This document shows positions 1 through 62,395 of a stretch of DNA of 64,000 nt, one piece after another. Positions within the stretch are counted from its first letter, which is position 1, and each line of letters opens with the position of its first letter. The stretch lies in assembly GCA_963402885.1 (NCBI GenBank), contig OY727095.1, positions 11,599,001-11,663,000 on the forward strand, written 5' to 3'. Position numbers and translations under genes: made by a program. The notes below the pieces were generated by a model, which was not told the origin of the DNA, searched no databases, and saw only the letters and a list, made by a program, of their open reading frames with translations. The stretch comes from Antedon bifida. Taxonomy: Eukaryota; Echinodermata; Crinoidea; Comatulida; Antedonidae.

Positions 1-345
1 AATTAACATTATTAAAAATAATCATAACACCTTATTCATCATATGCCTGGATTAGAGATTGCTTATATGTAATTTTAAAACTAAAAGGTGAAGGTTTCTT
101 TATCAGTGAATGTGAAAGACTTTCCCAAAGTTTAGGTCCAGTATAAAGTATTGAATGACGTCTAATGTGCGAGTCGCAGTTTTTAACAGTGTATACATTA
201 GTATTGGAAAAACGGGTAAAATGTGTATGAGTATCAGAAGGTTTAGTAAAGAGTGAACATATGTGGGTCGGAAGTAGATTATTTGTAAGTCGGTACATGA
301 ATAGTGCAGTTTGAAGTTTATTAACTTAAATAAACTTGAATAACA
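1..345 (-). mobile_element. 5'-truncated LINE (non-LTR retrotransposon) reverse-transcriptase tail
   Basis: The minus-strand reading frame at 32-298 ends in a pattern typical of the C-terminus of CR1/Jockey/RTE-type reverse transcriptases: a run like LFMYRLTNNLLP, then basic residues, then ILYTGPKLWESL. The frame stays similar a little upstream of its first Met, to about 325, and then stops, which fits 5' truncation. The element's 3' end lies left of the window. Homology between the upstream gene copy and its downstream duplicate starts next to this fragment (about 345 versus about 33724). The LINE therefore either sits in an intron of that paralogue or marks the duplication edge. Confidence 0.6.
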
Positions 346-430
346 TATTCAATATGCATAGTGTTTAGTCGTTTAATTTGCTCATCACGGATACATTCAA
401 AACATTGTTACTTTTTTACTTAATAAACAG

Positions 431-11890: not shown

Positions 11891-13876
11891 ATGGAAACAC
11901 TTAATAAAAATTTGTTGTCCGTTATTATATTTGGATTTTGTTTAAGTTTTTCAGCTGGTGAAACATTCATCAGTGGAGACATTTCAGAAGATGTAGAGTT
12001 TGTATCTTCTGATAGTCCTTTGTTTGTGACAGATGACCTGTATGTACAGAGCAATGCTACTGTAACCATTCAAGCAGGAGTGCAGATGTTCTTTGCAGAA
12101 GGAACAGGCATCTTTGTTAATGGAACTTTGATTAGCAATGGAACAAACGACAATCATGTTGTGTTAACCAGTTATGGAAATTCGATATTTTTGAAAGACG
12201 AATGGCACCTCAAATGGTCACACGTAAGACTGGTGAACGGGGGTAATAAACACCAGGGCCGTGTGTTAGTGTATAAAGCTGGTAGATGGGGAAGAGTGTG
12301 TACAAATTATTATGCTCTTACAAATGCTGCTTTAGTAGTTTGCCGTCAACTTGGATACGAAAATGGATACTACAATGGGTTCGGTTCAGGACCAGAACCA
12401 GTTAATCTTTATGATGTGTACTGTGGTTCAAATGAGGAAACAATTTTGGATTGTCCTCGCAATGGTGGAAGCAGATGTACATGTAAGTTAATGAATTTAT
12501 TTACTTTGTGGTTATAAACATTTTCAACATTTTAAATTATTAGATATATTCAATAATATATAAATGAATGCATAATTTACTTAATTTTTAGATTCTTTAG
12601 GAGTTGTTTGTTCAACAACAATAAGTTCCCCGCACAACTTGACATTCTCCAATACCTCGTACTGGGCTGGTATAAGTTGGCTTAAAGACGATGCATATCA
12701 AGACAAACGAAGCTTCCTAAGATATACAGATATATCATTTGCGGGAGTAAACGCAAAGGGTGAACCTGGTAATCCTGCCATTTCTTCACATTCTAAACGC
12801 TTTCCATATTTATCCAATGTCAATATTGCTGATTGTGTTGGGTCAGGAATAAGTTTCTCTGGCGTCGTCTCAGTTGTTGACATTAACGAGGTTGTTGTTA
12901 AAGGCAATCGTGGTTATGGAATGGAAATGTCTACTTTAGGATCAATTTCAATACAAAATTCAAGATTTGAGGATAACGAATTTGATGGACTTGCAATGTT
13001 TGATGTTCATCATGGTACTCCTCATTATGACTACCTGTGTAATGATAATATTACATTTATTGATTCCTTCGAAACAAGATATTATACAGACGATCATATC
13101 AACAGTTACCAATCTTGTCGACAGGTAGGCCTATATTTATAAATATTTCTCGTGATAAGTTGCATTAGAGCCAACGGAAATAACCTGTTTTTGGCTATCC
13201 TTGTCAAAATTACATCTATACGTCAATCGTGTACCTGTTTTAAATATACATTAAATAGAACTAACTGTATTTGTTAATCTTTGATCTCATGTTTTCTGCC
13301 TAATGACGTTTTATACAATTTTAACTCCCATTTCTAGGGTATTGCTTGTAATCGTGTTCTTATACATTTTCTTGTATATTGTTATTGACATTTATTTTGA
13401 TCAAATAAATAAATGAATTAATTAATGAGTAAATTAATAAAACAAAAAGAACGTTTAATGTCAAAATAATGTGTTTTTAGCACGATAAAATAGGTAATCA
13501 TTCTGAGCGGATCACTTTTTGGATTATTGGAATTGGAAGGTGGGTGAAAGGGGGTTGGAGAGATATTCTGAAATTGGTCATTATTCATTTAGTAAGAAAT
13601 AAAGCCTAATAAAAAAAAAATAATTTTGTAAATGCCAGTTGTTTTATGCAGACCAAGGATACTTGCTGAAAGTGAAAGTCCTTCAATACTACTCGTATTA
13701 TATTGACTATGGTTACTTAACCCTCTATGATGGTAATGACACTTCAACCGCTGTTGTCAAAAGGTTTACAAAACAAGACGATGTACTGTCGTCCACAAAC
13801 AATGTCATGATTATTGAATATCGATGCTACTACTACAACTGCAGATACGATTTAAATTTAGTGATTTGGAGTGAGC
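11891..13876 (+). other. Exons 1-3: signal peptide and module 1 (leader, SRCR1, beta-helix, CUB1)
   Basis: Exons 11891-12482, 12592-13124 and 13639-13876. The start is a Met followed by a hydrophobic run (LLSVIIFGFCLSFSAG), a convincing signal peptide. The leader has the ATVTIQAGVQMFF / GTLISNG pattern shared by all three modules. SRCR1 (about residues 110-207) has six cysteines in the group A arrangement, including VVCRQLGY, and is split by intron 1 near its last cysteine. Short parallel beta-helix repeats follow (residues about 220-370, rich in N/G/S). The CUB-like segment contains YGYLTLYDGNDTS. Unlike modules 2 and 3, this module is interrupted by introns. The first exon-3 AG (13651) would break the frame, so the acceptor at 13637-13638 is used. 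Confidence 0.8.
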
Positions 13877-16800
13877 GTAAGTACATTACAAAATATTCTT
13901 ACTTTGGTGATTGTTTTTTTTAATAATATTTAACCATGTAAATGTGTTTGTTCTTATTATGGCATAATGTACTGTACATATCATGTCGCGTCCATTACAA
14001 AAAGTTATGTTTATTTATTTTCTATACATAATTGTATAATAAACCAAAATATTTCTGATTTTTTCATCAAATTAATCTGTTTCATAACATTAATGTATAA
14101 ATAGAGCCGGCCATATTTCCGAATTAACACTGTCCATAACAGTAAACTGTTTAATTTCAATTGATATGAGAAACTTACTTGGAAACTAAAGTAAAACGTA
14201 TAACCGTAGTAAAATGTAAAATTATATATTGTTATTTCAAGATTATTATTTATTTCAGCAACACAAGGGTCTCAGGAAATTAGAAATTCAAACTTTGTTG
14301 GCAACAATGGAAATGGATTGACAGTGCACCCAACGTACATGCCGGAAGTGAGTATGAACAACGTAAAGGTGATTTCTAATAATGGAAATGGATTTCAAAC
14401 ATACGGCAACATTGAAAAAATAACTGTCGACTCAAGTGATTTTGTCGGTAACTTTTTAAATGGAATTAGCATTTATGAAGCTCAGAACATTGTTATTAAT
14501 ACATCATATGTTTCAGAAAATAATATGAATGGATTGATTTCGAGAAGAGGTGATATTAGCATATTCAATAGTGTGTTTGACGGGAACTCCGATTCCGGGC
14601 TGTTTGTAGACGATAATAACCGCAATACTTTGCAGGTTGAAAATAACTCATTCTCTTATAACAACGGATGTGGAATCGTTATAACTGGTGCATATTCAAA
14701 CTCGTACATTTACAACAATTCAGTTGAATACAATATGAACGGTGCAATTAACATTGGAGTTGGCGTAAGCCCACGTTTATACGATATCATCATCTCGGGA
14801 AATACTATATCATTTAACACAGGAGGTTTCCTTGTACATATAGATGTATATCGAGTGAATTATGCAAATGCTATACAAATAACTGATAACGTTTTCAGAA
14901 ACAATACATGTGAGCGAGTCCTTTCTGTTGCTGTGTCCTACAATGATGATACTATGATTGTTGAGAGAAACGTTATGACTAACAATCAGCCACGATTGCG
15001 ATTTCCAAACTCTGTGTGGCCGTCATCTGTTTTGTTCTTACAATACTCAAAAGTATCAATGAAAAGCAACACATTTGATAATCCAGATTTCATGTTTGAA
15101 GTGGTTGCTGTTGGTCGGGAAAAACTATCAACAACTGTCATTAACGCTAGTCTGTCTTGGTGGGGATCTGATAACTGTTCTCTCATCAAGTCTCGTATCA
15201 TTGATGGAGAAACACGACCGTCGTATCCAAAGCTTTTAATATCGCCTTATCGTGTCGACAATGACACATCTGAACTTGCATATCAAGAATGTAGTCGAAT
15301 TGGAGTTTTTCAGTCCGGTCAAACGATAGGTGGCAGTATATATGGTAATGTGACATTATCTTCTGTCGGTAGTCCGTACGTAGTTAATAACGATATTGTA
15401 ATACACCCAGAAGCTATGTTGGTAATTGAACCTGGTGTAACCTTATTGTTTGACTACTATACTGGGATATTAGTTCGCGGAACACTTTTAGCCAACGGTA
15501 ATTACACAGATATGATCAGAATGACGCCATTCTTTAAAAACGTGTCTACTCCTATTCGAATATCTGATGGCAAAAATCAATGGGAAGGAGTCTTAGAAGT
15601 GTTGAAAGATGGTAACTGGAGTTCTGTCTGTTATTCTTCTTATAATTATAATTATGACATTGCTATTGTTGCGCGTATAGCGTGTCAGCAACTTGGATAC
15701 ACCGGATATCTTGATTATTACACTGCCACATCCACCAGAATGACCGTCTTAGATTATTTTGAATGCAATGAAGACACTCATACAAATATCTTAGACTGTG
15801 CTTTCAACATTCAACTGTATGTTTGTCCGTCATATAATAAGCTTTATTTGGTATGTAATCCTGGAAAGTGGAGTGGTATCAAGTACACGCTTTCCAGTAA
15901 GCAGAGTTCGATGGAATTTGCTTACATTAGTCAAACTGGTGGTAATCTTGAGAAAATGAATGTGTATTCCAGTGCTGCTATTCAAGTTGACTTTAATCAT
16001 CATCATTTTGCTAATCTTAATCTTCATAATGTACACAGAGGCTTTACATTCTACATAGATAACCCATTCATCGATAAAGATCCAACTACCAATACTGATA
16101 TCATCTGTGCTACTTTTGGATACGGTGTTACAGTTTATTCCCTTTCCTATCACTACTATCAGGGATCTATTAACTGCAGTGGGGGGATTTACCTGTCGAC
16201 ACTCTCATCGGATGATTTCAATGCTATCAAACATTACACCGATCAGCAACATGTTCTTAGTTTTGCGGAAGCTGATCAATCGATATTCGTCGAAGACATT
16301 CTTTATCTGGATTTATTATATTCAGGTTACAATTACGTCACACATTATCGTAACTTTACCGTGCAGGATGGTAATGCAATTGCAATGTTTGTCTACAATG
16401 ATTACATTTCAAATAATGGTTATTTGTCTTTCATCGATCCTTCAAGCGGAAAGACACTACTCTCGTTGGATTCTTCGTCGTCTGGGCGGCAACAACAGTG
16501 GATTCAAACGACCTCAAATGAACTCACTATTACGTTTTCGTCAAATTATTATTACGCTTCCAATAAAGTTGGAATTGTTATTCTGTCTTTAAAAGGTACG
16601 TAATTTCACATTTAGCACATTTAATTTTAAATTAATTTTCAGTTTAAATGATAAATAGGCCTACCTGTTTCTTCAACTTATGTTTTGTTCTTGAAAAAAA
16701 TATATTGCTTGATTGGCAAAAGAGAATCGAGTTTTCACGTGCAGGAATATTTTATCTACGATATAATATTATGTGAGTAAAAGTACATATAGCATTATTA

Positions 16801-19800
16801 TTTCTGTTTTCATACACAGACCCGGTTAAAAACATAACGAACAGCATTGTGTTGGATTCCATCAAATACGAAAGTAGTGGTTCGTACGCAATAGAAATGC
16901 AATCCGGATCAAAATCGACATACTTAAAAGTTTTGAACTGTACACTATTTGATAACACGTATGGATACGACATTGTGTATTTAAATAATGGGGGTCGCGT
17001 TCTGTTTGAAGGATGTAACTTGTCTTCGATTAATAACTATCGTCCTGATGGCGTTAGAATTCGTGGTACATTTGAAGGAATCACATTTTCTAACTGTGAA
17101 TTTAAAAATATTTACAGAGGTATTGACCTTTACAATAGCAATATACTACCACTTAAAATCATGGATTGTTCATTTTTAACGGTCAGTTATGCCATATACA
17201 TTTATGGAAGCCAACATTCAAACATCGAAGTGTATAAATCAAGATTCGAAGATTTTTATAATGGATTGAGAACCACATCCTTTGATAATATTTTCATCGA
17301 TGAATGTGACTTTCAAGATGGAACTTATGGTGTGTACGTTGATACATCGTTTGGTTATCAAAGTAATAATCACTCGATAATCTTGCAAAATATTAATTTC
17401 CAATCGGTACACCGATCAGTTTATGCGGACATTGATATTGATGCATATCAAGCGTCCGAATGGGTTTATCTAAGTTTAAAGAAATGTATTGTTGAAGATA
17501 GCGATCGCTTTCTGGAAACATATATATTTACGGAGACAATGAATATTGAAATGGATATAAAAAACAATATGATAATGCACGGTAGAGATGTTATCTCAAT
17601 AACGATAAATAACCAAATTGACAATAGCTACGTTGTTAACATTGCGAATAATACAATTATGAACAACACTGCTGATAACGCTATTGTTTCAATTGGACAA
17701 CACTACCCTGCATTCATGTCATCTTCAACAGGCTTACAATTTAATTTCATGGACAACATTTTACAACATAATTTAGCAAACCACATTATAAATGGTCTTA
17801 CATGTGCCTTGGAACTTGGTGTTCATACAGCATCCTTATCTGGAAATTTGTTTGATAACGTTGGAATCGATGTGGAGATCTGTAGTGCGCATGTCTTCAC
17901 TGACCAGGATCATTATATTGATGCACGGTTTAACCAATGGGGAAACGTTGAAGAAGATAAAGTACGCCACAGAGTTTTTGACAATGAAGATTGGAATAAC
18001 CTTGTGTACATTATTACGGATGATGAGAATACTGTAACTGATGAGTTGAGTAAATGTAGTTCGTCTAACATAGGTGGACGAATTAATGGCACATGTCACC
18101 TGACATTGCTAAATAGTCCTTATCAGGTCCAATCTGACATTACAGTTTTACCAAACGCAGAGTTAATAATAGATCCGGGTGTAAAATTGTTTTTAAAAGA
18201 AAATAATGGAATTACTATTCTTGGAAGGTTATCAGCAGTAGGTAATGCTAACGAAGAAATAACTTTTGATTTAATAGAAGTGCCTGGTTTTGGTTCAGTA
18301 GATAGTGATAAGATACGTTTGGTTGAAGGTAATAGTCGAACAGAAGGACGTCTTCAAATATATGTGAATGGTGAATGGAAATATGTTTGGTATAGCAGTT
18401 TTAGATACAATGATGCTCAGGTTGCTTGTCGACAACTTGGTTTTACCTACGAAGGTTATACTAGCGTTTCTCTCAATGCAGAATTTGAGCAAACCTGGAA
18501 AAACCGTCTCTATTGCAATGGATATGAGTTGAGTTTATTTGACTGTTCAGGGTACTACTACAACAACTATTACTATCCTTATAATGTATGGTTGAATTGT
18601 AAGAGCTCAAATTGGGGAAATATTCAATTGTATACCGATTCAAATTCTGAAAGGTCTACCATTAAACATGTTAACATATTAAATACCGGTCGGCTACATG
18701 GTGTGGATGGTGTACCTTCAATATATGCGTTTGGACCTGTAATTCCGCTCACAAAAGACATCTATTTTGAGAACTGTATCGGACAGGCACTTGTCATTGA
18801 TAGTACGACAGAAATTGAACTAGAGAGAATTACCGTAAAGCAGTGTTGGTCAGGTTTTGCATCAAGAATTTATTCAGAAGTCAACATTTTGGAGAGCTCG
18901 TTTGAACATATTGATGCTTCTGGCCTATTAATGACTACGAGAATAGCCAGTTTCTTCCCTTCACAGTCGTTTTTTCATTCCAGATGTGGTGGACATCATC
19001 TGGTTAATCCGGGAGACCAGTTAATGCTTTCTGAAAGTTTATGCGGTGAACAAGACTGCATCAGTGTTATTAAATGTGTACACAACTGTACAATTATTAT
19101 GGCTTTTCAACCCGTAAATCATTATTATTCCCGCATTTATATTTATGACGGGACTTCCATTTATTCTAATCAAATTGGATATGTAGACCGATATTCTTCG
19201 AAGATGACGTATATTCCTACTTCGAGCGCAGTAACTATTAGGATAGACTATTATTATTATTCTTCAAGATATTATTACTGTAAAAATACGAATAATTATC
19301 AACGACTTGAACTTCACATCTCGGTTTATGAAAAAGGTAAGTCACTTGATTTTTAAATCTTTATAATTGTAAAATTCACCGAATATGGAGTATGTTTATC
19401 CATTTATCGTCAATCGTTTTAGTGCGTAGTTATTGTGTATACTATTTCCTATTTATTAAGCTCAATTGATGGAATAAATTTAGGCCTACGTATTTCTGAC
19501 GACCCATCGTAAAAAATTGCAATACTTTAGGTACTACCAGCAATGAAATTCATACGTATCAAATGTCAATAGTTTATACATTTCCGCAATGTATAATTTT
19601 TTTGCGCACATTTTTAAAAATCAAATATTATAAGTTCTGAATTGTACTGTATTAGATGATAATATGTTTGGCTATTTATTTTGTTGTATCTTAATATTGT
19701 AGAACATCTGAAGTCGTCCATAACTGTAGCCGATTCGACTATCAAGAATGTTGTTGGATCTTTTGTTTCAATCGTGGATAATGAAATTGAAGATAAAATT

Positions 19801-22800
19801 CCTGTTGATGTTACCATTTCAAGATGCTATTTTGAAAAGTGTTCCCGAACAAACCACAGTGTTATCAGCATTGGTCGCAAAGACGGTAACTGTTCAATAA
19901 CTGAAAATTTTTTCAATGAAAACTACGGTACAGTAAACATTAATCAAGGAGGAACCGATGCTTCAACAATAATTGTTGCACGTAACTATTTTTTATCAAC
20001 AAAACAGAGTAACATATTGTATATACAGTCTCCAGCTGACTCAATAAGAATACAGGTGTTTGATAACCACTTCATTCAAAACATACCATCAGCAAACAAC
20101 GATGTAGTCACCATTCAAGGAGGCAACGCTAGTATTAATAACAACTTATTTTATTATAACAATGGGCGACATTTGATATTCATTGGAGGGGAAACTGCCA
20201 ATGGAAACCGACTCATCTATGGTAACATCATGATTTATAACACTGGCCAACGTTCTGATGAAACATTCACAATATTACTAGATGGTACCAATACTGGCAT
20301 TACTGGAAATTATATAGTAAATGCTGGAAATGAATTTGAAATAGCTCTTACTTCTCGGGTAACGGAGACGGTTTATGCTACAAATAACTATTGGGGAGTT
20401 CGTTCCTTAGAAGAGGTCAGAGGTCGAGTGCGTGATGGAAAGAGTATTATTGGTCACGCAGATATCGAACAGGAACCTTTTCTTACTGAACCATCAGATA
20501 TCGAATTCTTCAGTTGTAAGTTTAAACATTTTACTACCCTATATTAGCAGAGAAACGAATATTTAGGAAGAAGAGATATTTTGTTTTATTACTATAATTT
20601 AATAAAGGTTTATTATTAGCAAATGTAGTGAAGAAAAAATCAAAGGATTAAAAGATAACAAAGTTTTGAGATACTACTGTTTATATGAGGGAAGGAAATC
20701 TAGAAAGAACAGAGATATAAAGATCAAAGTTAAAAGATCATGTTAAATGTTAAATCATTAATTAATTAAGTAATTAATAATTGTTTTTAAAGCATCATGT
20801 CAGCCAGGCTATACCTTAGAAGGAAGTCAGTGTTTCAGTTACAAACCAGCTGCCGTCGACTACAATACAGCGAAGTCAATTTGCTTTGTATATATACATT
20901 TATTATTACTATTAATTAAAGTAATTAACCAAAGAGAGCACACTTTGTGTATACAAACAGTGTTCTTCTCTTCCACTAGAGACATTTTCCTTTTTGGTTA
21001 TCCGCAACTTAGAAGTTGCGGATAACCCTTGTGATTGTAAATATCTTCCTTTTTTTTCATCTTCTTTGTTCTTCTTTCTTTCCCGGAATTTTGTATATCT
21101 CTCGTCGTTGTCAACATAAGATTGTATAACTTTGTCAAAAGATTGACCTGTAGCTGTAGATGTGCAAGAAACTTCGTTATATGACGTTAGAGTCGCGCAG
21201 CGTAAGTTACGCGCGATTTTATGAATTTCAATGATTGATCATAGATTATAAACCAAAAGTCATTTTGTATTGACACTTGGTGAAAATTTAAGTCATATCA
21301 TGGGAAAACTTTCTATGGATTAAAAATAGCATGTTTCACAAGAAGTTACGCGAAATTAAAATTTCAAAATGCGCAAAATTAATTTCTAATCAATTTCTAC
21401 GCTGATCATGACATTTTGAGCATGTCAAAAATTCCCACGCGCGCGAAAAAAATTACGCGTAAGGTGCGCACGGAGCATGAAAATCATGTGTTTTTCTCTT
21501 GAATTAAGATTTTACAGTCTTTCCTAGTTATTTTAAAAAAGATTGACATCATTTCAAATTAAAATGACGTCATACGAACACGTTGATTTAGACCATTTGC
21601 GCGCGTTTTAGTTGCAAAAGTGACAACATATTGTCAAAATTATGCATATTTTTAATCTATTATAGCTTCTCCGGATCATCCATGACCCATAATGTTTTTA
21701 ATTTAATATGTAAGCAGATATGTTGTAGATATGAATTCATGCAGAATCTTTACCCCTCGGATGTTATGACGTCATCGTATGGCCACACGAATGTAAAATA
21801 TAGGATTTTTTACTCTTTCGTTATTGCTCATCACATTAAATAGAGCGCATCTCGCTTATACGTATTCCATTTCCACAGATATTTTAATACTCTCTAGGTC
21901 AATCAATTATCTTTCGCATGAGTTAAAAATATTTTAATTTTTATGACGTCATCATGTATAAAAAAGTAAATAACGTAGGTCCCCTATTTTCATCTTTACA
22001 GTAAATTTCAATCTGTTATAGCCCGTTAGAATAAAAAGTGATAATCATGATTAAAACGTTTTATGGAAGCTATTGGATTGTAGATACGAATGTATGTGAA
22101 TATTTTGCCAATCAGATGTTGTGACGTCATCATATGGCCAGTTGAATTCAAAAAGTCATATTTTCATCTCTTGCGTAAAAGTTCATTGCGTTTAAACGAG
22201 AGCGCATCTCACTTTTACGTGCTCAAAATTCTTCATATTTGTATTAATGTAATTATTTAGATAATTGTCTTCTAAAATAGTTATCTTTATATGTCAATTT
22301 GATGACGTCATCATGTTAATAATTGGATTTAAAAGATGGGTCTCGTAATTTCGTCTATGCTACACTGTATATAACATAATACAGTGTACAGTATTCTTTA
22401 AATACTGTAATATGCTGTATGCTACAAAATAGGTACAATTCAGCACTGTAAACATATTTAATTCATGTCATAGGATGTCATAATAATTGTCGGCGTTCAT
22501 ATATTTTAAACGTATGTGCATGTTGCGTTTGCGCGGATAACCCGAACTCGTCAAAGTGACGAGTTCAAATCTAGTTACCATTATATCTATACTTCAGTTT
22601 ACGTTCCCATTCGTATTCCCACTTTAAACAAATCAAGTACAGAATATCATTTTGTTATTTCGGAATTTTTTTTTTATAAACCTTATGTTCTTGTACTAAA
22701 TCATAATTTGTATATCTATATTAATTTTTTGTAATAATTCACAGTCGGAAAGAAACGCAGTGTACCGGCTAGTTTGCAATAATTGTATTGGTCCTACCAA

Positions 22801-28800: not shown

Positions 28801-31800
28801 TTTTATTTATAGATTTGATTACGTTACTGAAAACCAATTTGTTGATAAAAGAAGAATTGGTTCTTATTACGTTACGTTGGGAAATGTACCTATTCCTCTA
28901 TCTGTTGATATCCAGGTCAAGTATTCCGTATCTGTTGACCTGCCTGTAAGTATATTGATTGTAAGAAGAAATGATAATTTATATCAATCAATCTATTTCA
29001 GAAAAAGGTATCGTTATATTGGATTTTCATAGTTTATGATAGTCCAGTACACTTTAAATATGATTAGTATTTAAGATTTTATTTAAAATTGTTGATAAAG
29101 AAATACACAAATCATTACCGTATTGTACTATTTGTCTTTAAGGCTTCGTTGGAAACCACTTTTGGTGTTACCTCTAGTGGATATATAAGCTTTGGTTCAG
29201 GTCTCAGACCACAGAAGGATAGATTGGTTGTACTACCTCCAACGGTTTGTATCATTATTTAATCACTTAGATAATCAAGTTAAATTAAATGATAGTTCTA
29301 TATGTTACATTTCTTTCGTGATATCGAAGGTGTATGAAGTTTAAGTTGTCATGAGTTGGCAAATATTGTTCCTAAGGGGTAGGCATTCTGTATAGACTCA
29401 CAATTATTTGCTTTTTAAAGTCAATAAAACGCACCATTCACTTTGTACTATTTATAGGTAGCTAATTCAAATACAAGTTCAACAAGAGCCGTGTATTCAA
29501 CACAACTTGAAGAAAAGAACAATACAATATCCGTGAATGCCACATTGACACCAACAATAGTGTTTACATTTCCATCTGAACCTGTGGCACCATTCTGCAC
29601 TACTAAATCTTCTCTGCCTGATTGGCTTGCAAATTTTGGTAGGAAAATTGTAGAGTCTAATAATAATTGAAATACTGAAATATGTTATACACAGAAGCTT
29701 TGTTTTCTATAATTTTACTTGTTTAGTATCATTCTGCTGGAAACGACCAAGTATTTTAGTATATCAATCTTTTTTTAATGTAGTACCGTAGTAGTAATCA
29801 GTTTGTACATTTCATTACTATAATGTTGTGTATTGAAGTTTGATCTTACATGATTAATCCCTGATTTAGTTGGAATAAATGAAACGAGATGTGCTTGGAA
29901 TTCAGAAGAGGAAACATCGTCAGCTTTTCAATTTTCTACTACATTCGATATTCAGACAAACTATACAGTTTTGATGTGTGATGATGTTTGTAATAAAGAT
30001 AATAGTTTACCTTGTGATATACCAAACGCCGACATATTATATGGTGGTCTTACAAACATGAATATGCTCACAACATATAACCAAGTCGACCTAACACAAA
30101 TCGCATACAGATCAAAAACGAATGAGTTAACGGTTCACACAAGGTAATGTTTTTATAAGTTACGGTGCGATTCTTTACCATCCTCCTGTATATTTATTAT
30201 GATTTGTTGCTAGCTGACCAACTGATATCAATTTTCAACTAATATCACTTCCTAACTGATATCACTTAAAATGTACTTATTTTCTTTAACAGAGAGTGCC
30301 GAGCCCAACCAATGCCTAGTGTTACCACAGAGACTACTGAAATGCCTAATTATTGTCCTGACGGCTACACAGTCTCTCAAACCAATGCTATAATGGAGTG
30401 CCCATGTACATGTCTTGATGCTACTCTGAGGAATATGTCTCCAGATGGATCATGCCCGGTTTGTTCATTTTACATCTTCTTCGCCGAACTAAACACTCAC
30501 TTCACACTATATACACGCTTATCAATGATATACTATTAGTTACACCCTGCTTGCTCACGGAATACGGGAAATATCCACGTTCTGGTTCCATATTCTATGA
30601 GGCCGAAGGGAATATGGAACCAGAACGTAGATATTTCCCGTATTCCGTAAGAACAAGCAGGGTGCAACGATTTTATCTCTTAATGCACACATATAAGCAA
30701 CTATGCATGCGCTCAACGATAAAAATACAATACAAAACATAAACAACGCGCGCGTAGAAACATCAAACAGGTAATACGGAATATATTACCCTTCTGATCT
30801 GCTTGACTGAGTAAATGGGCGTAAATACGGAATTATATCTCATACATATTGACCAATCGGATTACAGAATTCACGTACACTAATAGATAATAAACAATAT
30901 CTTGTAAAATGACGTGTAGTGGTCAATTTCAAGCAACCACTAGTAAAAAAAAGAATGTGAACATTTGAGTTAAACATAAAACTACAGTACCATATCATTT
31001 CACCAGAGTATATCTTCTAGAATACAAATATAATGCTTTAAATAATTTGAATTAGTTTGCATATTGTAGAACATTCAGAACTTAATAACTTAATAAACGA
31101 TATAATTGAATATAATATATTCAACATTATTGCAATTTTTCTTTAGTGTTCATGTCAATGTGCTGATGGGTCATATGATATCATAGCACCAGATGGAAGC
31201 TGCCCGTGTGAATGTACCTGTTCTGACTGTCAAACTTACACCATCGATTCAAACGGTTGTCCATGTCCCCTGATGAATGACATATGTCCGCCATGTTTGG
31301 TTGGTGAAGTTCAAGTTATCAACAATTGTCTTTGTCAATGTGTGCCAGATGACCAATGTGGAATTCCACCAATATGTGTGACTGGACGCCAAGGTGAACA
31401 CTGTGATAGACCCGACTGTCGGCCATGTCAAGGTAACAATATTTAACCAAGGCGATAATCAATTCAATCTAATCAAAACTCTAATTAATCAGTATTGACT
31501 AAAATACTATTTCATGATAAGTATTGATACAATGCACATTATTTACTTTGTTTAGGTTGCTCTGGGAACGGTGTCTGTACTTCGGTGCCAAACAGCTGTC
31601 AATCGCAATGTCAGTGTAATCGAGCTTGGATCGGAGAATGCTGTGACATTAGAAGACCAGCTAGAACTGGAGGAGATCCTCATCTTGTGACATTAGACGG
31701 TAATAACTTTATTCAACTAATTTTTTCCTTTCTTTTTTATCTTGTTATTTTATCTTCATTTTTTTTTTCTATAAATATTTTGTTCCTTTTCATTTCTTGT

Positions 31801-34800
31801 GTCTTTTTTTACCCTTTTTTTTCTATTTTTCCCCAATTTTATTTATTTTTTAATGAATAATTAAAAATGACGGAACTGAGTTAATGATTGGATGAGTGAT
31901 AAAATAAATAGATTAAGGTGGATTCTGTTTTTCTGTCATTTTTGTTTGGCAAATTACTCCGTATCAGCATTCTGTTGCTAACGAGAACGATTAACACAAA
32001 AAGCACCCTATGAATGGAATTGTCATTAAATTATTTGTTTGATCAGGTAATCACAACAAAGACCATGTACAATTTGAGTCCATATTGTGTTCTCCCAGAA
32101 TATAATAAATAAGTTATTAAAATAGATTTTTTAAATTGAAGCAAACATCGAGATAGGCTATTAAGTCTTTCTTAAGTACACTCCATATAAATATCTATTC
32201 CTTGTAGGTGTGGAGTACGATTACTATGGAAATGGCGAGTTCTGGTTATGCAGAAGCATTGGTAATGATTTTGGTATACAAGCAAGATTTTATGAAAGCC
32301 ACAGATCTTCATTAACTGGAGGAATTTCCATGAAATTGAAAGAAGATGTTTTGACAATTACCACTCCAATGATAGCGGATTATGAAACATTGCCAATTCT
32401 AAGGTAGGTACACATGATATTATAATATTGTACAAACCTAAAGAATATGAGAAAAAAAAACATTTTCCAATGTTAAGCCTTTAAACAAAGTGTTTAACTT
32501 TGATTTTTCAAACATTTTTAGACTAAATGGTGAATTACTGGATATAAACACTGAGCAGAAAATCCAATTGGCAAATTCAACAGTACTATTAGATGTTGAG
32601 CTGAGAAACAGCAGTAACTCGTCAAGTCCCATAATGATTTTGGCATTCGAATACCAATCAGGTGATTTTTTTGTATTTGTTTAAATTATTGATTTTCTAT
32701 TTTTGTTGTTGCCAAAAACATGTTAACCTCTATTTCTAAAGTGGAATGTTGCAGTGTTTATTGGACAGAAAACATATCCAGAAACGACTTTCATACTTTT
32801 GAAACGAATAAATTGTTTACATTAAAAAAACCCACACTTTTACTGATTTAAAAATAGTCTTATTTTTATTTATCAATACGGCTTTAAAGTTTTAACATTA
32901 TCAATCTTTATTGACATTGCCTTATTAATTATCTAGTGTTTTGTTGTCTAACTATCAGTTATTTATTTTTAAGGTGTGTCAGTAGGTATCGAAGTACAGT
33001 TTAGTGAGTCGATCGAGAGACTATACTTCAACTTATTACTCACACCTACCCTCAGCTTTATTGGTAAAACAGAAAGCCTCTGTGGTCTTATGGATGATGA
33101 CACGGACAACGATTTTATTGGTTCGGATGGCGCCCTCTACCATCTCAATAATGTCACTGAATTTGTTGAAACATGTAAGACAGATTACATATTATTGATT
33201 CATTGAATATTAAATAATTGACTCCCACATTTGGAGAAAACTGCAGCAATATAAAAACAACAAAAGCCGTAACTTTAGAAAAACATAAACATTTTTGTGA
33301 GAATAGTATTTTTTCAGTTTCATAGTCAACATTTCTTCTTTTTCCGAAACTAGGGAAAATTTCAAGCTCTAATTCTAATGGTGGACTGCATGGTTCTTGG
33401 TCGTGGAATTCGTCCAATTTTCATTCATTAGATGAGTTGGATAGTTCTTACACGAGGATATATGAACCGATCTACAGTTCAGATGACTTAGATCAAGATA
33501 TTGTGGAGGTAATAAAGATTAATAGATTAAATTATTTAGTAATAATTGTATGCATATCATTTTCTTTTAAATATTGATAACATGTTATTTCCTCAAAAAC
33601 CTGTGGATGTGAGAGCAATGCTATTTTTTTAATGTGGAGTTTCTATAATTAGACAGGTTATTAGATTTTTAACTTTCAATCTAGTAATCAACACTTGAAT
33701 TCGATATATGAGATTTATTTTTTCAATATGCATAGTTTTTAGTCGTTTAATTTGCTCATCACGGATACATTCAAAACATTGTTACTTTTTACTTAATAAA
33801 CAGATTGCAACGACTGCATGCCTTAAAACACTACAAAATACAATAGAAAATGCTGTTCTTTTTCAATCTTGTGTCTACGACGTCGCTGTAACAAATGACA
33901 TGTCATTCTCAAATCAACAGTCACTGCAAATAGGTAAGTGACTACTAGCGTCATTTTCTCATGAAGTTTATGAAACGCCAAACGGAATTCATTTTTATCG
34001 AATTTTATTTATACAAAGTAAAATGTACACGACTATTAAAGTATTGTGCAATATTTGTGCATTTCAGGATGTCCACAGCAGTGTTCAGGTCGTGGAGTAT
34101 GCATCGATAGTGTATGCCAATGTCTACCGGGATGGTCTGGAAATAGTTGTAACAATGGTAAACTTCTCCGCACTTTGATTTTATCAATTTAATTGTTTTT
34201 AAACCCGAATTTAATAATCCATGTTAACAATTATGCAATAATATTGAATTTAATTTCTTTAGGTACCTGCACCTCGAATTGTATTAATGGAGATTGCATA
34301 TCTGGGTTTTGTCGATGTAACGTTGGCTGGGAAGGCGATACATGTGAAGACAAAGGTACATATTATTATATATTATTTTAGGAACACAATATTAACTTTA
34401 TGTTAAAGGTATTGTTAATTATTAAAGTTTTTAATTTGTATATTTATATATATACTAATTGCAGGGTAAAATGCCAGTAATATTTTATTTAGTTCAATGA
34501 ACTTGATGTTATTATATGCTTGTGTTTTAAGTAGTAATTAGACATTGAGTGTTAAACATATATTTTTAGCCACTTGCTATAGTGTAAATAACTGTACAGA
34601 CGAGCAACACGGTGAATGCCTTTCAACGGATGTATGTTTATGCAAGAAAGGGTTTACAGGTAAAGACGGTATTCTGTAATTTCTAGACATAAATTCTATT
34701 GGTTGAGAGTATTGAACTCTTTTTACGCTAGTCAAGCAACCACTTCTCTGCGCATGTGCAAATGAATAGAATTAGCCATTCAATCTGAGACAACCTTTTC

Positions 34801-37800
34801 ACACTTAATAAAAATAATGTAGAATAACGAGTGTATGATTGTACCTATCCAAAGGCAAATTACTAAAAATATGGCAATGTATCAGTGGGTGGATCTCAAT
34901 GGAGATACAAAATAAAATAAGCAAAAAGCAAAATCAAAACGATAAAGTAAAACAGCCAGAAAAATGGCCCTTCCTCAGTTTACACTTGGACAAAGTAGAT
35001 ATAAAGCAGACAAGTACTTAACTGTAATATATAAATCATTTATATAATATTAATAACTGTATTATCAGGTGATGATTGTAGTATCGTTCCAACGTGTCAT
35101 GCAGTTTCTGATTGCTCAAGTAACGGAATCTGTGTTAACTTTGATGTATGTGAATGTCAGGAACAATGGAAATCTTCAGCTTGTGACGTGTTATCTTGTC
35201 ACAACCTTGACGGATGCTCAGGTAAAATCTGAAGTGAATAATGAAATAGCAATTTAGTCTAGAACAGTTGATGTGAAAGAATATTTGTTATGGACTTGTG
35301 AAAATATTCCCTCCATTCAACTCATAAGCATTCATTATTTTGGATATCTTTATTTTATGAAGCAAACGTATATAATATGAAATTCAGTTATCATAAATAG
35401 CGTTAATTGTTCAGATACTGAGATAAAAAGTATAATTTTCAATAGTATACAGTATACAAAATTAACAACAACGAAAAAAAAATTGTTAAGAACATAAAAA
35501 AAATAGTAAAAAACAAAACCAATATTGTCCAAGTAAATATTGTTACTTTTTTGATTAACATTTCATAAGAAACTGCTAATTGCCTTTATTTATGACAGGT
35601 AATGGCATATGCGTCAGTATCGACGTTTGTATGTGTAATAGTGGATGGACTGGCGAATCTTGTGCTTTGCCCGATTGTTCTGAAATGAACTATTGTAGTG
35701 ATCAGGGGGAATGTACAGGACCGAACCAGTGTAGTTGTTATGTGGGGTACCAAGGAGATAACTGCACTGAATCAATTGACTGCATTGAATTGAATAATTG
35801 CAATGGTAATGGAGTTTGTATTGAAGACGCCTCTTTGGATAATGGAACATTTTCTTGCGAGTAAGTTCAGCAACGGTAGTTTGTAGAAACTAAGGGTGCA
35901 TGATGGGTGGTGGAAGTGGTTGGGTTTCTCAATGCTGTTGGCTAAACTGCCTCTTTCTCCAATCAAATGTCTGGAAACATCCCACGTTTATAATTATTTG
36001 GCGTATTTAGATCTTTAGAACACTTCGGCCACAATCTACTGTATATTGGTCCTCTCAAGATGGAAATAAGTTATTTATAGCTTATGATGATGATCACTGT
36101 GTCTTACTTATACTACAGCTCTTTCACATAAACAGATGTAGTGCCTTTGAAAACAGACAAGAGGTTTTTTTTTATAGCTATATTAATGTATTGGTCTTTT
36201 ATCTAGGTGTTTTAGTGGATATTCAGGTGTGAATTGCTCTGTGTTTTCATGTGAACAGTTAAATAATTGTTATGACCATGGGACATGTATTGAATCCAAC
36301 GTTTGTCAGTGTGATGTTGGTTATACTGGACAGAATTGCTCACTTCCTTCTTGTGAAAATCTTGCGTTTTGTACTGGTAAGTGCCGTCTAAAAACAATTT
36401 TATTATACATTTTTGATGAGATAAAAACATATAACAACCTAATTTCTTTTTTCCATTCATCTTTCCATTTCACTTTATTTATTGAAGGTAATGGAGCATG
36501 TGTATCTTATGACAAATGTGAGTGCTACACTTCCTGGTCAGGTGATAAATGTGACATTGCATTTTGTAGTGATGACTGTAATGGACGTGGAGATTGCGTT
36601 GATGAAGAAACATGTCAATGTTATATAGGTTATGAAGGTGATAGATGCGAACTTGTTCAACAAGAAAATCTAAACCAACCTATATTTGATAACGATGCAT
36701 TGAATGTCACATTTTACGAAAATCTACCGATTGGAACCTTTTTAATCACTGTAAATGCACGGGATAACGACACTGGTCAGAATGGGATGGTATCATATCG
36801 ATTATTACAGTCAGAATACTCAAACCTTTTTCTAATCGATCAACAAAATGGAAATTTGATTACTGCTTGGGTATTTGATTTTGAAACACCATACTCGGAT
36901 ATCTCACTTACAGTAATTGCTGAAGATAATGGTTTCCCACCGATGAGTGCATATGCTATGGTTAACCTAACGCTACTGGATCAAAATGATAACTGTCCAG
37001 TATTCTTAGGAGATTATCCAGATATAACTATTCATCTTAATACCACCAATGCAACAGTCATTAGTAATATTTCAGTTGTAGATGAAGATAGTGATGAAAA
37101 TGGCAATGTTAAATTATCAATGAAGGTCGAAGGTGATATGTCAGGTTCAATATTCGAGTTATTAGACACTGGTGAAATATTGGTAGCTGGTGATCTTCAG
37201 TCAGGACGGTACGTAATCAAATTAGTTGCATCAGACAATGCCCTTCAGCCGTGTAAAACAAATCAAGAATTTTCTGTTTACGTTCCATTTGTTCCAAATT
37301 ATGATTTAACAACGCCGGGCTTAACAACTGAACAACGTGAAATTACAACTCTTCGAGAAACCACAGTTAAAGATGTTACCACAGCTCCAGACATAACAAC
37401 TGAACAGCGTAAAACAACTCCTTTAGAAACTACAGTTAAAGATGTTACCACAGCTTCAGACATAACAACTGAACAACGTGAAATTACAACTCCAGGAACT
37501 ACAGTTAAAGATGTTATTACAACTCCAGACTTGACAACTGAACAGCGTAAAACAACTCCTCGAGAAACTACAGTTGTTACCACAACTCCCGACATAACAA
37601 CTGAACAACGTGTAATTACAACTCAAGGAACTACAGTTAAAGATGTTACAACTCCAGACATAACAACTGAACAACGCGTAGTTACAACTCAAGGAACTAC
37701 AGTTAAAGATGTTACCACAAGTCAAGGAACTACAGTTAAAGATATTACCACCCCACACTTAACAACAGCTGATACTACTTCTCCAAATCAAGTGACAACT

Positions 37801-39595
37801 GTTCAACAAGGATCTACCCCCAAAGAAGTAACTACAACCATTATCGACAAAACTGATACTACATCACCAAATCCAACAACTGAAGACGATAACGTAGTTA
37901 CAACTCCACAAGTTTTGACATCAGAAGACAGTCGTACTACTGCTCAAGATCTGAGAACCGAAAAAGAAGGTAAATTATTGAATATATTACTAATTAAGTT
38001 TGATAAACCAATAGTTTATTCACTCAAATATATATATCTAACACCATTTAGAATATTATTAAAAACGTTGATTGTTGTTGTTAAAATGTGCAGTAGATCA
38101 TGTGATTTTGTGTGTTTGTTTTACAGGAGATTGTACAACAGATGCAGAATGCAATAATGGCGCAAGTTGCTATATTGGTATATGCGCTTGTCTTTGTCCG
38201 TATAGTGGCACAACGTGTAATGAAGGTATTTACCATTAGTTCGTCATAATCACAAACATAAATTATAATTTTTTATCAACGATTATGAAACAAATCATCT
38301 TCCTTATTATGATTATCATCTATAGATTAGATAATATATTATATTATTACAATGTCATCAATAATCAGTAGCAGCAACATTACAGATTATCAATATCTTT
38401 ATACTACTACAAGTAAATACCTATTATTAATACATTATGTACTTTTAGTTGGACAGTGTTTTGAGACATCTATCCTGGTTACTAATCTTCAGTCCGTATT
38501 TGGTGATAATGAGGCCCAGTTTTCACCTGAATTAGACGATCCTTCAACTCAGTTGTTTCAAGATGTATACAGAGTAGCTAAAGATACTGTAAGTATTTCT
38601 CACAACCACATGTTCTCTTTCAGAGGTATTAAGTATCAATGTTATTTGACTACTTTGACCTATTTATACAGGATAAAATCAGGTATAGATATTGCACCTG
38701 TTTTACATATGGTCCTGTTTGTTTCTTTTTTTTTGGAGCAATAGATTAAAAAATATTCAAGACATTAACAAACTTTAAAAAGGACAACCATATGTTGCAT
38801 TGTCATAGATGCGGCATGCATTTTTCCAATGAGTTACATAATTTCAATAACTCTAGGTACTACATTTCTCAATTGCCACTCTTGTTCAGTAAGTTTGGTT
38901 TAAAATAAAATTAAGGTGTACTTAAACGGGAATACTACAATATGCGATTGGCAGTTGATGTAATATGTTCTGATGAATCATATCCAAATACCTTTAATTA
39001 AAAATACCTCTCACTAAATGATTTATATCATGTTTCTCTTTTTCTTAAGATGACAACTGTTGCTGCCAGCTCTGATATTGTGAAAGAGATCAAAATCGTG
39101 GGATTTAGACAGGGAAGCCTACTTATGGACATGAGCATAGTAGCTGTAACTGGACAATCTGAACAACAGATTAGGGAGGAGTTCACACGGGCGTTGATGG
39201 CTACAGATAGTAAAGATATTACTTTTGATTTAGACACCATACAGGTTAAAGAGGGTAAGTGTAAAGATACAGATTTAGATTAGTTTGGAAATATCACGAT
39301 TACTTGTTGCTGATAATAGTATGAAAATAAGTGTGTATGCTTATGTATGAGAGTAACTTACCTAAGAGTTTTATTTGTTACAGTAAATGAAGAATCCGAT
39401 GTATGGATTATTGTCTTTATTTTGGCTTCCATCGCATTCTTGGGTATCTTCGTAATATGCATAGCTGTTTGCACTATGCTTATTTTGAAAACGCAAGCAA
39501 AGAAAAGACATTTGAGAGATATGGCCGTATCAAGACAAGGTTTCATCTACAGAGATGAACGAATGGATGGGGAACAAGGTGGAAAGAGATATTAA
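11891..39595 (+). CDS. bark-like: Giant Bark beetle/Anakonda-like mosaic membrane protein (41 exons, about 4,715 aa)
   Basis: One gene assembled by hand from 41 exons. All junctions are GT-AG, phases agree throughout, and the sum is 14,148 nt. Exon coordinates are in the domain entries below. Order of parts: signal peptide (about 1-23); three modules of beta-helix leader, SRCR, parallel beta-helix repeats and CUB (to about 2070); a last beta-helix region (to about 2343); C-type-lectin-like domain; EGF; PSI; an unassigned beta-rich region (about 2585-3244); Cys-rich repeats; EGF; VWD (about 3435-3640); EGF array; two cadherin repeats; Thr-rich mucin stretch; EGF; SEA with a GS cleavage-type site (about residue 4599); a transmembrane helix (about 4652-4674); and a 40-residue tail. 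In flies the Bark/Anakonda family acts at tricellular junctions. The C-terminal half here resembles membrane mucins instead. An adhesive or epithelial-barrier role is inferred. A few donors are weak (20888 GTATAT, 27051 GTCTTT, 29245 GTTTGT), so local exon edges could shift. Confidence 0.85.
14259..16595 (+). other. Exon 4 (2,337 nt): beta-helix 1, leader, SRCR2, CUB2
   Basis: A single very long exon, phase 1 at both ends. It begins with parallel beta-helix repeats (SxFxxNxxNGIxI-type coils, about residues 455-750). It continues with the second leader (AMLVIEPGVTLLFDY, GTLLANGN) and SRCR2, which keeps all six group A cysteines (SVCYSS, IACQQLGY, FECNED, ILDCAF, YVCPS, LVCN). A short stretch follows, then a CUB-like domain with INCSG and NNGYLSFIDPSSGK. 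Loops are Tyr/Asn-rich. Being symmetric and intronless, it is a natural unit for module duplication together with exon 5. Confidence 0.8.
16820..19336 (+). other. Exon 5 (2,517 nt): beta-helix 2, leader, SRCR3 (missing one disulfide), CUB3
   Basis: This exon has the same layout as exon 4 and is also phase 1-1. Beta-helix coils run to about residue 1640, then the third leader (AELIIDPGVKLFLKE, GRLSAVGN), then SRCR3 near 18290-18610. SRCR3 has WKYVWYSS where the other two modules have a cysteine (VCT, VCY). It also lacks the cysteine between the ILDC-like and last cysteine positions, where a YYYNNYYYPY run sits. Four of six cysteines remain. CUB3 (about 18980-19330) starts CGGHHLVNPGD and contains RIYIYDGTS and long Tyr runs (IDYYYYSSRYYYC). 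Confidence 0.8.
19703..20515 (+). other. Exon 6: final parallel beta-helix region
   Basis: About 271 residues of beta-helix coils (ITVADSTIKNV, SITENFFNENYG, NASINNNLFYYNNG, GNYIVNAGN) ending in an element like the module ends (TNNYWG ... GRVRDG ... EPFL). That closing motif also ends the earlier beta-helix blocks (for example WWGSDNC before leader 2 and FNQWGN before leader 3). The exon ends at phase 1. Confidence 0.75.
20793..23422 (+). other. Exons 7-9: divergent C-type-lectin-like domain
   Basis: Exons 20793-20887, 22745-22903 and 23326-23422. The start SSCQPGYTLEGSQCFSY with DYNTAKSIC is the typical opening of a long-form C-type-lectin fold, and the end YPTVCERQA is the typical last strand with the closing cysteine. 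The WND motif and the EPN/QPD calcium-sugar motifs are missing, so sugar binding is not predicted. Bark/Anakonda proteins carry such a domain at the same place. The exon 7 donor is GTATAT. The neighbouring intron holds a 1.6-kb mobile element (20996-22574). Confidence 0.7.
20996..22574. mobile_element. Palindrome-ended nonautonomous element, copy A (intron 7)
   Basis: The left end is a 32-nt perfect palindrome with arms GGTTATCCGCAACTT. The right end has GCGGATAAC, the reverse complement of the left motif, followed by a 3' hairpin (ACTCGTCA AAG TGACGAGT) and CTAGTT. The interior of about 1.5 kb is closely similar to copy B at 24149-25742 in the same orientation, and no long reading frame is seen. 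Subterminal inverted repeats plus a 3' hairpin and a CTAG end recall Helitron/Helentron-derived elements, but this assignment is an inference. Confidence 0.7.
23556..24127 (+). other. Exons 10-11: EGF-like repeats and PSI domain
   Basis: Exons 23556-23728 and 23930-24127. Two EGF-like repeats come first (CPNQCMGNGLCGRGYCFC, then CSGGCGNYGTCQG). A PSI domain follows, with the hallmark CKSCAKVEGCGWCDSTRTC. PSI modules act as spacers in cell-surface receptors. Lectin-like, EGF, PSI order is consistent with a Bark-type protein. Confidence 0.8.
24149..25742. mobile_element. Palindrome-ended nonautonomous element, copy B (intron 11)
   Basis: The left end is a 32-nt perfect palindrome with arms AGTTATCCGCTTGGTA. 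The right end has GCGGATAAC, then the same 3' hairpin as copy A and CTAGTT. Inner arm sequence differs from copy A although the palindrome is intact in both. The interior shares long stretches with copy A, including repeated TGACGTCATCATG words and TTACGCGC-type words. No coding capacity is visible. Confidence 0.7.
25927..30143 (+). other. Exons 12-22: Cys segment and beta-rich region of unknown fold
   Basis: Exons 25927-26028, 26398-26680, 26865-27050, 27196-27439, 27529-27697, 27872-28021, 28240-28397, 28813-28945, 29143-29244, 29458-29638 and 29870-30143. A short Cys-rich part (LDCERSHCNF, CQSCLDLKQC) leads into about 600 residues with few cysteines and regular alternation of hydrophobic and polar residues. 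I recognise no domain in it. Stretches like VGTIIALDSIGNFIESV and IGSYYVTLGNVPIPLSVDIQ suggest beta-sandwich folds. Many small exons of mixed phase contrast with the symmetric EGF exons that follow. It links the Bark-like half to the VWD half. Confidence 0.65.
28418..28711. repeat. 147-bp tandem duplication containing a LINE tail, in intron 18
   Basis: Two adjacent copies of about 147 bp differ at one visible base (TGTTGCCC versus TGTCGCCC). Each ends in a stretch that reads VALWNGLPISN in one frame, the signature of the end of non-LTR reverse transcriptases. A recent local duplication of a LINE remnant is the simplest reading. Confidence 0.8.
30293..31699 (+). other. Exons 23-25: CPC repeats and EGF before VWD
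   Basis: Exons 30293-30458, 31147-31432 and 31556-31699. Three related Cys-dense units carry the motif DGSCPC or NGCPCP with CxCxC runs, ending in CRPC. An EGF-like repeat follows (CSGNGVCTSVPNSCQSQC). The exon ends with TGGDPHLVTLDG, the conserved opening of a VWD domain. Many closely spaced cysteines predict a compact disulfide-linked linker. Confidence 0.75.
30541..30668. repeat. Near-perfect hairpin (MITE-like) in intron 23
   Basis: Two inverted arms of about 54 nt (CGGAATACGGGAAATAT and its complement, then GTTCTGGTTCCATATTC and its complement) flank a spacer of about 14 nt with only a few mismatches. It lies about 80 nt after the exon 23 donor. It would form a long RNA hairpin in the pre-mRNA. 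Confidence 0.85.
31700..32207 (+). other. Intron 25, pyrimidine-rich
   Basis: The first 150 bases are almost entirely T/C runs. No exon, RNA gene or element is recognised. The donor is GTAATAAC and the acceptor is TTCCTTGTAG. Confidence 0.6.
32208..33933 (+). other. Exons 26-30: VWD domain and following Cys segment
   Basis: Exons 32208-32403, 32522-32661, 32974-33174, 33354-33508 and 33804-33933. Together with the end of exon 25 these encode a von Willebrand type D domain of the Mesh/SUSD2/MUC4 kind: GDPHLVTLDG, YGNGEFWLCR, a long beta-rich middle, then ESLCGLMDDDTDNDFIG. The acidic DDDTDNDF loop fits calcium binding. Exon 29 is Ser/Asn/Trp-rich (WKISSSN ... SWSWNSSN). Exon 30 has the CxxxL ... 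CVYDVAVT pattern that follows VWD in this family. Exon 30 is the first exon shared with the upstream paralogue. Confidence 0.8.
34068..36376 (+). other. Exons 31-36: EGF repeat array
   Basis: Exons 34068-34157, 34263-34355, 34570-34659, 35069-35221, 35599-35860 and 36207-36376. About eight EGF-like repeats, for example CSGRGVCIDSVCQCLPGWSG, CISGFCRCNVGWEG and CTGPNQCSCYVGYQG. The first four exons are phase 1-1 and carry one repeat each or slightly more. They can therefore be skipped or duplicated without frame change. No calcium-binding EGF consensus is obvious. The acceptor of 35069 is a normal CAG, unlike its lost counterpart in the upstream copy. Confidence 0.85.
36488..37969 (+). other. 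Exon 37: last EGF repeats, two cadherin repeats and mucin stretch
   Basis: A 1,482-nt phase 1-1 exon. It ends the EGF array (CYIGYEGDRCE), then starts a cadherin repeat (NVTFYENLPIGTFLITVNA, ARDNDTGQNG, FDFETPYSD, VIAEDNGFPP, LDQNDNCPVF) with intact calcium-binding motifs. A second, more divergent repeat follows (VVDEDSDENG, LVASDN). The Thr-rich stretch fills about 37300-37960, with about six to seven TTPDITTEQ units. EGF followed by only two cadherin repeats is unlike classical or Fat-type cadherins. Confidence 0.85.
37300..37960 (+). repeat. Thr-rich mucin-like coding repeat (downstream copy)
   Basis: Tandem in-frame units encode TTEQRxxTTxxTTVKDVTT. Compared with the upstream copy the unit types are reordered, one unit is cut to TTSQGTTVKDITTP, and the exon is 33 nt shorter overall. 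Frame is kept in both copies, as expected for a coding VNTR. Confidence 0.85.
38127..39595 (+). other. Exons 38-41: EGF, SEA domain, transmembrane helix, cytoplasmic tail
   Basis: Exons 38127-38225 (EGF, CNNGASCYIGICACLC), 38449-38588 and 39050-39254 (SEA), and 39384-39595. The SEA domain has FSPELDDPSTQLFQDVY early and FRQGSLLMDMSIVAV late. The latter matches the FRxGS(hydrophobic) turn at which membrane-mucin SEA domains cleave themselves between G and S. The last exon encodes a hydrophobic helix (VWIIVFILASIAFLGIFVIC), then the basic stop-transfer KTQAKKRH and a short tail with two Tyr. No PDZ-binding end is evident. Confidence 0.85.
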
Positions 39596-61529: not shown

Positions 61530-62395
61530 CCTCCAATCGTTTACGCATGGCAAACCATTTTACGACTACCTCCAAGTTATACGTATGCAAAAACCGTTTG
61601 ATCCCCACCACCAGTTTTTCGAATGGCAAACCCTTTGTGCATCTCCTCCAGGTTTTTACGTATGGAAAACCTTTTGAGCACCATCGCCACTTTATACGTA
61701 TGGCAAACCGTTTGAGCACCACCTCTAGTTCTGTTTTACGTATGGAAAACCGTTTGAGCACCACCTCTAGTTCTGTTTTACGTATGGCAAACCGTTTGAG
61801 CACCACCTTTAGTTCTGTTTTACGTATGGCAAACCGTTGAGCACTACCTCTAATTCTGCTTTTACGTATAGCAAACCGTTGAGCACCACCTCTAATTCTG
61901 CTTTTACGTATAGCAAACCGTTGAGCACCACCTCTAGTTCTGCTTTTACGTATGGCAAACCGTTGAGCACCACCTCTAGTTCTGTTTTACGTATGGCAAA
62001 CCGTTTGAGCACCACCTTTAGTTCTGTTTTACGTATGGCAACCCGTTTGAGCACCACCTCTAGTTCTGTTTTTACGTATGGCAAACCGTTTGAGCACCAC
62101 CTCTAGTTCTGTTTTTACGTATGGCAAACCATTTGATCACAACTCCCAAGTTTTTACGTATGGCAATCCGTTTGAGCACCATCTCTAGTTCTGTTTTTAC
62201 GTATTGCAAACCGTTTGAGAACCACCTCCAGTTCTGTTTTTACGTATGGAAAACCGTTTAAGCACCACCTCTGGTTCTGTTTTTAAGTATGGCAAACCGT
62301 TTGAGCACCATCTCTAGTTCTGTTTTGACGTATGGAAAACCTTTTGAGCATCACTTCCACTTTGTACGTATGGCAAACCGTATTTCGAAAACTTT
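61530..62395. repeat. 42-43 bp minisatellite, about 19 units
   Basis: The unit is approximately TTTTACGTATGGCAAACCGT followed by TTGAGCACCACCTCTAGTTC and TG. Central units (about 61720-62130) are nearly identical; the edges are more diverged. Because 42 is a multiple of 3, several frames stay open on both strands, which produces false protein predictions. Confidence 0.95.

Follow-up and report, generated by a model that had tools for sequence, protein, structure and literature searches.

Introduction

Tricellular junction proteins have been studied mostly in flies, where Bark/Anakonda is located at these junctions and works with M6. Mesh/MUC4-type proteins, for which NIDO and AMOP domains are defining, have a VWD domain and a membrane anchor, and MUC4 also carries a mucin stretch. 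VWDE-type proteins combine VWD with EGF repeats. Bark-type proteins are characterised by SRCR domains, a beta-helix, CUB domains, a C-type lectin-like domain (CTLD) and a transmembrane (TM) segment, as portrayed in the available parts of three reports (PMC6716108, PMC11698045, PMC8006247). Drosophila Bark beetle/Anakonda (Aka) is described with a signal peptide, SRCR, CUB, a parallel beta-helix, a CTLD and a TM segment; it mediates homophilic adhesion, and its ectodomain, not its cytoplasmic part, is needed to gather at vertices (available part of PMC11698045). In the crab Scylla paramamosain, the corresponding account of SpBark gives a protein of 2,863 aa with three SRCR domains, a CTLD followed by 255 residues, and a C-terminal TM segment. 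SpBark aids phagocytosis and also binds microbes, with the strongest binding through the CTLD (available part of PMC6716108).

Here we describe a related locus of Antedon bifida, found in the window (the whole stretch of 64,000 nucleotides that was analysed, C8:11599001-11663000); genome-wide searches covered the assembly of 315.6 Mb in 27 contigs. Its mitochondrial COX1 agrees best with conserved residues when AAA is read as Asn and AGR as Ser, a code used by echinoderms and flatworms; the resemblance of COX1 favours an echinoderm. Known from genomic DNA, the predicted product is a 4,715-residue type I, single-pass membrane protein of the Bark/Anakonda type, encoded by one gene. An internal block of 1,543 residues, carrying VWD and EGF domains, interrupts what otherwise reads as a Bark-type backbone. 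The signal peptide, SRCR, parallel beta-helix and TM segment, with candidate CUB domains and a candidate CTLD, are shared with Aka, whereas VWD, an EGF array and the orphan module are missing from the available description of Aka, which also leaves cadherin and SEA unmentioned. Three SRCR domains, a candidate CTLD and a C-terminal TM segment are shared with SpBark, but here about 2,260 residues follow the CTLD; both comparisons are by description. None of the open-access literature matches listed had the same architecture.

Results

A curated 41-exon model with a Bark-type head

A purpose-written splice-aware gene finder, trained on long open exons, with weights from the conservation between tandem copies, predicted 42 exons; predictions made with lax penalties were discarded because of overprediction. 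Hand curation left 39 exons: four exons were removed (two false starts and two very small ones), ATG 11891 was taken as the start, exon 3 was lengthened and a final exon was added. Reading of open stretches in the DNA then located two VWD exons, one acceptor was reset from the DNA, and the final curated prediction for the window copy is a single frame of 41 exons and 4,715 residues (Table 1). The initial annotation had proposed one phase-consistent reading of 41 exons and about 4,715 codons, and our independently curated model arrived at the same totals. Hydropathy alone identified the signal-like N-terminus and the single C-terminal TM segment, with no second TM-like stretch in the protein. 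Elsewhere in the window, an open frame on the minus strand at 48154-48660 weakly matches the C-terminal domain of apextrin (ApeC; E 0.0019, under the cut-off), and 61540-62381 is a tandem array of about 20 copies of units of about 42 bases.

Table 1. Features of the window, in window positions
Feature	Position	Strand	Basis or remark
3' end of neighbouring tandem copy B	1..6149	+	stop one codon later than in window copy
Whole coding span, 41 exons, 4,715 residues	11891..39595	+	all exons matched in order in C14
Start codon and N-terminal signal-like stretch, residues 9-27	11891..11971	+	hydropathy; ATG also in copies A and B; METLN start in C14
SRCR 1, residues 115-205, spanning exons 1-2	12233..12614	+	best Pfam SRCR stretch
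CUB-like domain, unit 1, exon 3	13639..13876	+	Pfam CUB 14.9 bits, below cut-off 21.4
Beta-helix, residues 486-638	14351..14809	+	best Pfam stretch, PF13229
SRCR 2	15560..15865	+	limits by eye; best Pfam SRCR_2 stretch 15590-15778
CUB domain, unit 2	16289..16594	+	
Right-handed beta-helix, unit 2	16822..17886	+	
SRCR 3	18319..18627	+	limits by eye; Pfam counts three SRCR stretches, details best one only
CUB-like stretch, unit 3	18997..19335	+	position alone; no Pfam match
CTLD, exons 7-9 (20793-20887, 22745-22903, 23326-23422)	20793..23422	+	profile; same place and phases in C15
Internal, putatively inserted block, exons 10-36, residues 2461-4003 (1,543)	23556..36376	+	flanked by phase-1 introns; missing from C15
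EGF repeats and PSI-like segment, exons 10-11	23556..24127	+	Pfam; PSI 21.8 bits, cut-off 23.1
Orphan module, ~630 residues, exons 13-22	26398..30143	+	no relative detected
Cys-rich CPC repeats, exons 23-24	30293..31432	+	sequence; no Pfam match
VWD domain, residues 3433-3608, within exons 25-28	31666..33131	+	Pfam PF00094 36.6 bits, cut-off 22.9
EGF array, exons 31-37 (start)	34068..36660	+	Pfam EGF_TEN, EGF_Teneurin; end approximate
Two cadherin repeats, exon 37	36706..37272	+	Pfam PF00028 90.6 bits, two stretches; end of second approximate
Thr-rich mucin-like stretch	37322..37720	+	69-base tandem repeat in DNA
EGF-like repeat before SEA, exon 38	38127..38225	+	corresponding exon in C15
SEA-like domain, exons 39-40	38449..39254	+	Pfam 23.7 bits; C14 30.7; C15 24.9; cut-off 26.4
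TM segment, then short cytoplasmic tail	39407..39463	+	hydropathy 3.2

The N-terminal half had been annotated as a Bark/Anakonda-type head. This agrees with the presence of both the three SRCR domains (Pfam, 137.3 bits) and the right-handed parallel beta-helix that mark these proteins, although the CUB and CTLD scores are weak. All 14 chains matched by the CTLD profile are C-type lectins, but the best E is 0.022, and Pfam gave no CTLD match in the window copy. None of the 11 PDB chains that a CUB profile matched up to E 1 is a CUB domain. Single-sequence AlphaFold models were poor overall (mean pLDDT 42.9 and 47.7), and therefore only their beta-helix and CUB fold matches were used.

The VWD, EGF repeats, two cadherin repeats, Thr-rich mucin-like stretch, SEA-like domain and TM segment noted earlier were all located by Pfam, hydropathy or residue composition, the SEA-like domain under the cut-off in this copy. 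The mucin-like stretch has 72 Thr in its richest 200 residues (S/T/P 45.5%). Its 69-base minisatellite varies in copy number between tandem copies, with about 5.9 units at 37322-37720 versus 6.7 at 3949-4403. The SEA profile gave two PDB matches, neither to a SEA domain. A G-S pair in the SEA-like domain (39113-39118) is invariant in the copies on C8, C14 and C15, and given this invariance in three paralogues, self-cleavage at the pair is possible.

Within the block, the VWD domain matched FcGBP best in the PDB (E 3.5e-08), and the orphan module had no match in Pfam and none in the PDB up to E 1. All 40 genome matches of the orphan module fall in the C8 copies and C14. The same holds for 24 of the 29 matches of the VWD piece, the other five being weak (E 1.5e-4 or worse), and neither search of the genome found a donor gene for the block. 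The VWD scan also recorded, at C7:672700-734900 (G000), a run of VWD exons, several of them identically scored and spaced about 1.7 kb apart.

Long-form paralogues on C8 and C14

The genome holds four copies of the long form, one on C14 and a tandem triplet on C8. The tandem copies A, B and C (C being the window copy) are spaced at 29-35 kb; each has a head and a tail, and head, block and tail were duplicated together. All 41 exons were mapped in both A and B, and copy A keeps 40/40 donors and 40/40 acceptors. The start codon is identical in the three copies, and A and B stop one codon after the position used in C. In steps of 400 bases outside gaps, identity of A and B (C8 about 11547176-11605149) to the window copy varies between 66% and 99%, a patchiness suggestive of gene conversion. 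Insertions of about 1.6 kb in intron 7 (20994-22574) and intron 11 (24145-25745) are related to each other (79% alike over 1.4 kb) and are absent from A and B.

The C14 copy (C14:10748572-10784342) was found by protein search and is 73% identical in protein, with 3,353 identical residues among 4,578 aligned. Its prediction was curated by phase and splice sites; eight false exons were dropped, and exons 1, 3 and 6 and the stop were corrected. False exons ahead of the C14 gene at about 10741260-10747170 and within it at about 10753300-10754400 (L025, L026) look retroelement-like by eye. The best plus-strand matches of all 41 exons are in order and 47-94% identical. Phases agree for 41/41 exons, GT donors for 40/40 and AG acceptors for 40/40, and 28/41 exons are equal in length. 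DNA matches cover 97% of exon bases versus 11% of intron bases. As judged from these comparisons, the conservation of exons, phases and splice sites is far beyond chance, and it includes the exons at the head/block junction. Substitutions point to purifying selection: dN/dS versus C14 is 0.27 overall with a per-exon maximum of 0.66, and is 0.32 in the head, 0.22 in junction exons 9-13 and 0.13 in VWD exons 25-30.

Among the tandem copies, dN/dS over all exons is 0.37 (C-A) and 0.40 (C-B). Three exon groups were compared, and the head gave 0.45-0.47 versus 0.17-0.27 elsewhere; SEA exon 39 gave 0.81 and 1.09, on 4 and 5 changes. The faster divergence of the head would suit relaxed duplicates or a role in recognition. 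Immune genes usually show recent tandem amplification, as the long copies do. Together with the diverged head and with microbe binding by SpBark through its CTLD, this could mean that the long copies act in immune recognition or barrier defence and not at junctions. We regard this as unlikely, though not far-fetched, since dN/dS does not exceed 0.47 in any of the three exon groups and the head is constrained relative to C14.

A short paralogue without the block

A protein search also detected, at 28-35% identity, a paralogue on the minus strand of C15 (C15:20809641-20794404) with 13 exons, 3,080 aa and about 26% identity to the window copy. Its order is SRCR/beta-helix units, CTLD, EGF, cadherin, EGF, SEA-like domain and TM, and hydropathy gives a signal-like start and one strong TM segment. 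The units number three by alignment, but Pfam gives two SRCR stretches; the cadherin region yields one Pfam stretch (32.1 bits, cut-off 28.8) in place of two. Identical residues number 585/2,258 in the head, in an alignment whose end was forced by the chosen cut, and 131/508 in the tail. BLASTP supports the homology of the tail (EGF-cadherin, E 5.6e-19; EGF-SEA, E 2.1e-9). Intron phases, compared by eye, agree with the C8 partners in 12/12 cases, and intron positions are 0-4 alignment columns apart at the CTLD and tail versus 8-38 in the head; the C8 intron that follows exon 3 is without a counterpart in C15.

The C15 gene differs from the long form in having no counterpart of exons 10-36 and no Pfam match to VWD. 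A stretch of 321 bases separates its last lectin exon from its EGF-cadherin exon. The EGFs of the block match the C15 EGF weakly (best E 1.5e-7), as expected for EGFs. The 27 exons of the block are entered and left through phase-1 introns, and C15 has one phase-1 intron at that place. Because both ends are in phase 1, the block leaves the reading frame unbroken, and it appears to be a symmetrical insertion, or the mirror image of a symmetrical loss.

The initial annotation joined a Bark head to a Mesh/MUC4-like tail. One gene and the listed domains are supported; the proposed origin of the tail is not, since the VWD-less C15 protein already carries the EGF-cadherin-EGF-SEA-TM tail, which thus belongs to the Bark-type backbone here, and the extra exons are internal. 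The VWD domain, the membrane anchor and, as in MUC4, a mucin stretch do recall Mesh/MUC4-type proteins. However, the VWD is placed inside the Bark-type backbone, some 1,050 residues ahead of the TM segment, and NIDO and AMOP had no Pfam match up to E 1 in a scan that preceded the addition of the two VWD exons. VWDE-type proteins likewise have VWD plus EGF repeats, but the window protein adds a Bark-type head, cadherins, a SEA-like domain and a TM segment.

We favour gain of the block over its loss, inferring this from the two published arthropod descriptions: in the available accounts the 255 residues after the CTLD of SpBark leave no room for the block, and Aka is described without it. That the long form is older, C15 having lost exons 10-36 through one symmetrical deletion, seems improbable. 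Such a deletion would leave an identical phase-1 intron, and the coexistence of both forms in the genome gives neither priority in age. Against it, the crab and fly proteins show no VWD in the available descriptions, the crab stretch after the CTLD is short, and within this genome the orphan module turned up in the four long copies alone. Returning to gain, we put the odds near even that a Bark-type junction adhesion protein was enlarged by half in a single step. A block of 27 exons, symmetrical in phase 1 and holding VWD and a module of unknown fold, would have entered the stalk between the lectin-like and cadherin parts, and the long form would then have founded a small family (C14 and the tandem triplet).

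The same comparison bears on whether the locus holds two neighbouring genes, one of Bark type and, after it, one with VWD, EGF, cadherin and SEA. Each half does have recognisable Pfam domains of its own. This reading nevertheless fails, because the block sits between two parts of one backbone that are contiguous in C15, where head and EGF-cadherin-SEA-TM tail form one compact gene model. Hydropathy finds no TM-like stretch that closes the head, and in C14 exons 9-13 have retained their splice sites and phase and are under purifying selection. We consider two genes hardly credible, and a second gene within the block appears very unlikely. Copy B may be dead, since its exon 5 is interrupted by a 3.66 kb insertion (C8 about 11581870-11585540, upstream of the window) and AT replaces AG before exon 34. 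For the window copy an assembly artefact or dead gene is highly improbable: like copy A and C14, it is fully open with intact splice sites and dN/dS well under 1. The ends of the copy B insertion are inverted over about 150 bases and 79% alike, as in a DNA transposon.

Discussion

The best overall explanation, to which we give a probability of roughly 0.72, is one Bark-type gene with an internal block, encoding an adhesion or barrier protein with a lengthened stalk. The beta-helix/SRCR head would mediate adhesion at cell contacts or at the apical surface. The block would lengthen the stalk and might provide a VWD assembly site, and the membrane-proximal SEA-like domain could cleave itself at the G-S pair and so serve as a force-sensitive release point.

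A cadherin-SEA-TM tail appears to belong to at least some Bark-type proteins, and it is absent from the available parts of the published descriptions. Short and long Bark-type forms stand side by side in this genome, so that block insertion as the source of a new architecture can be tested directly. If the enlargement did take place in one step, the animal would have gained tall, possibly self-cleaving, VWD-linked contacts beside the ordinary short form.
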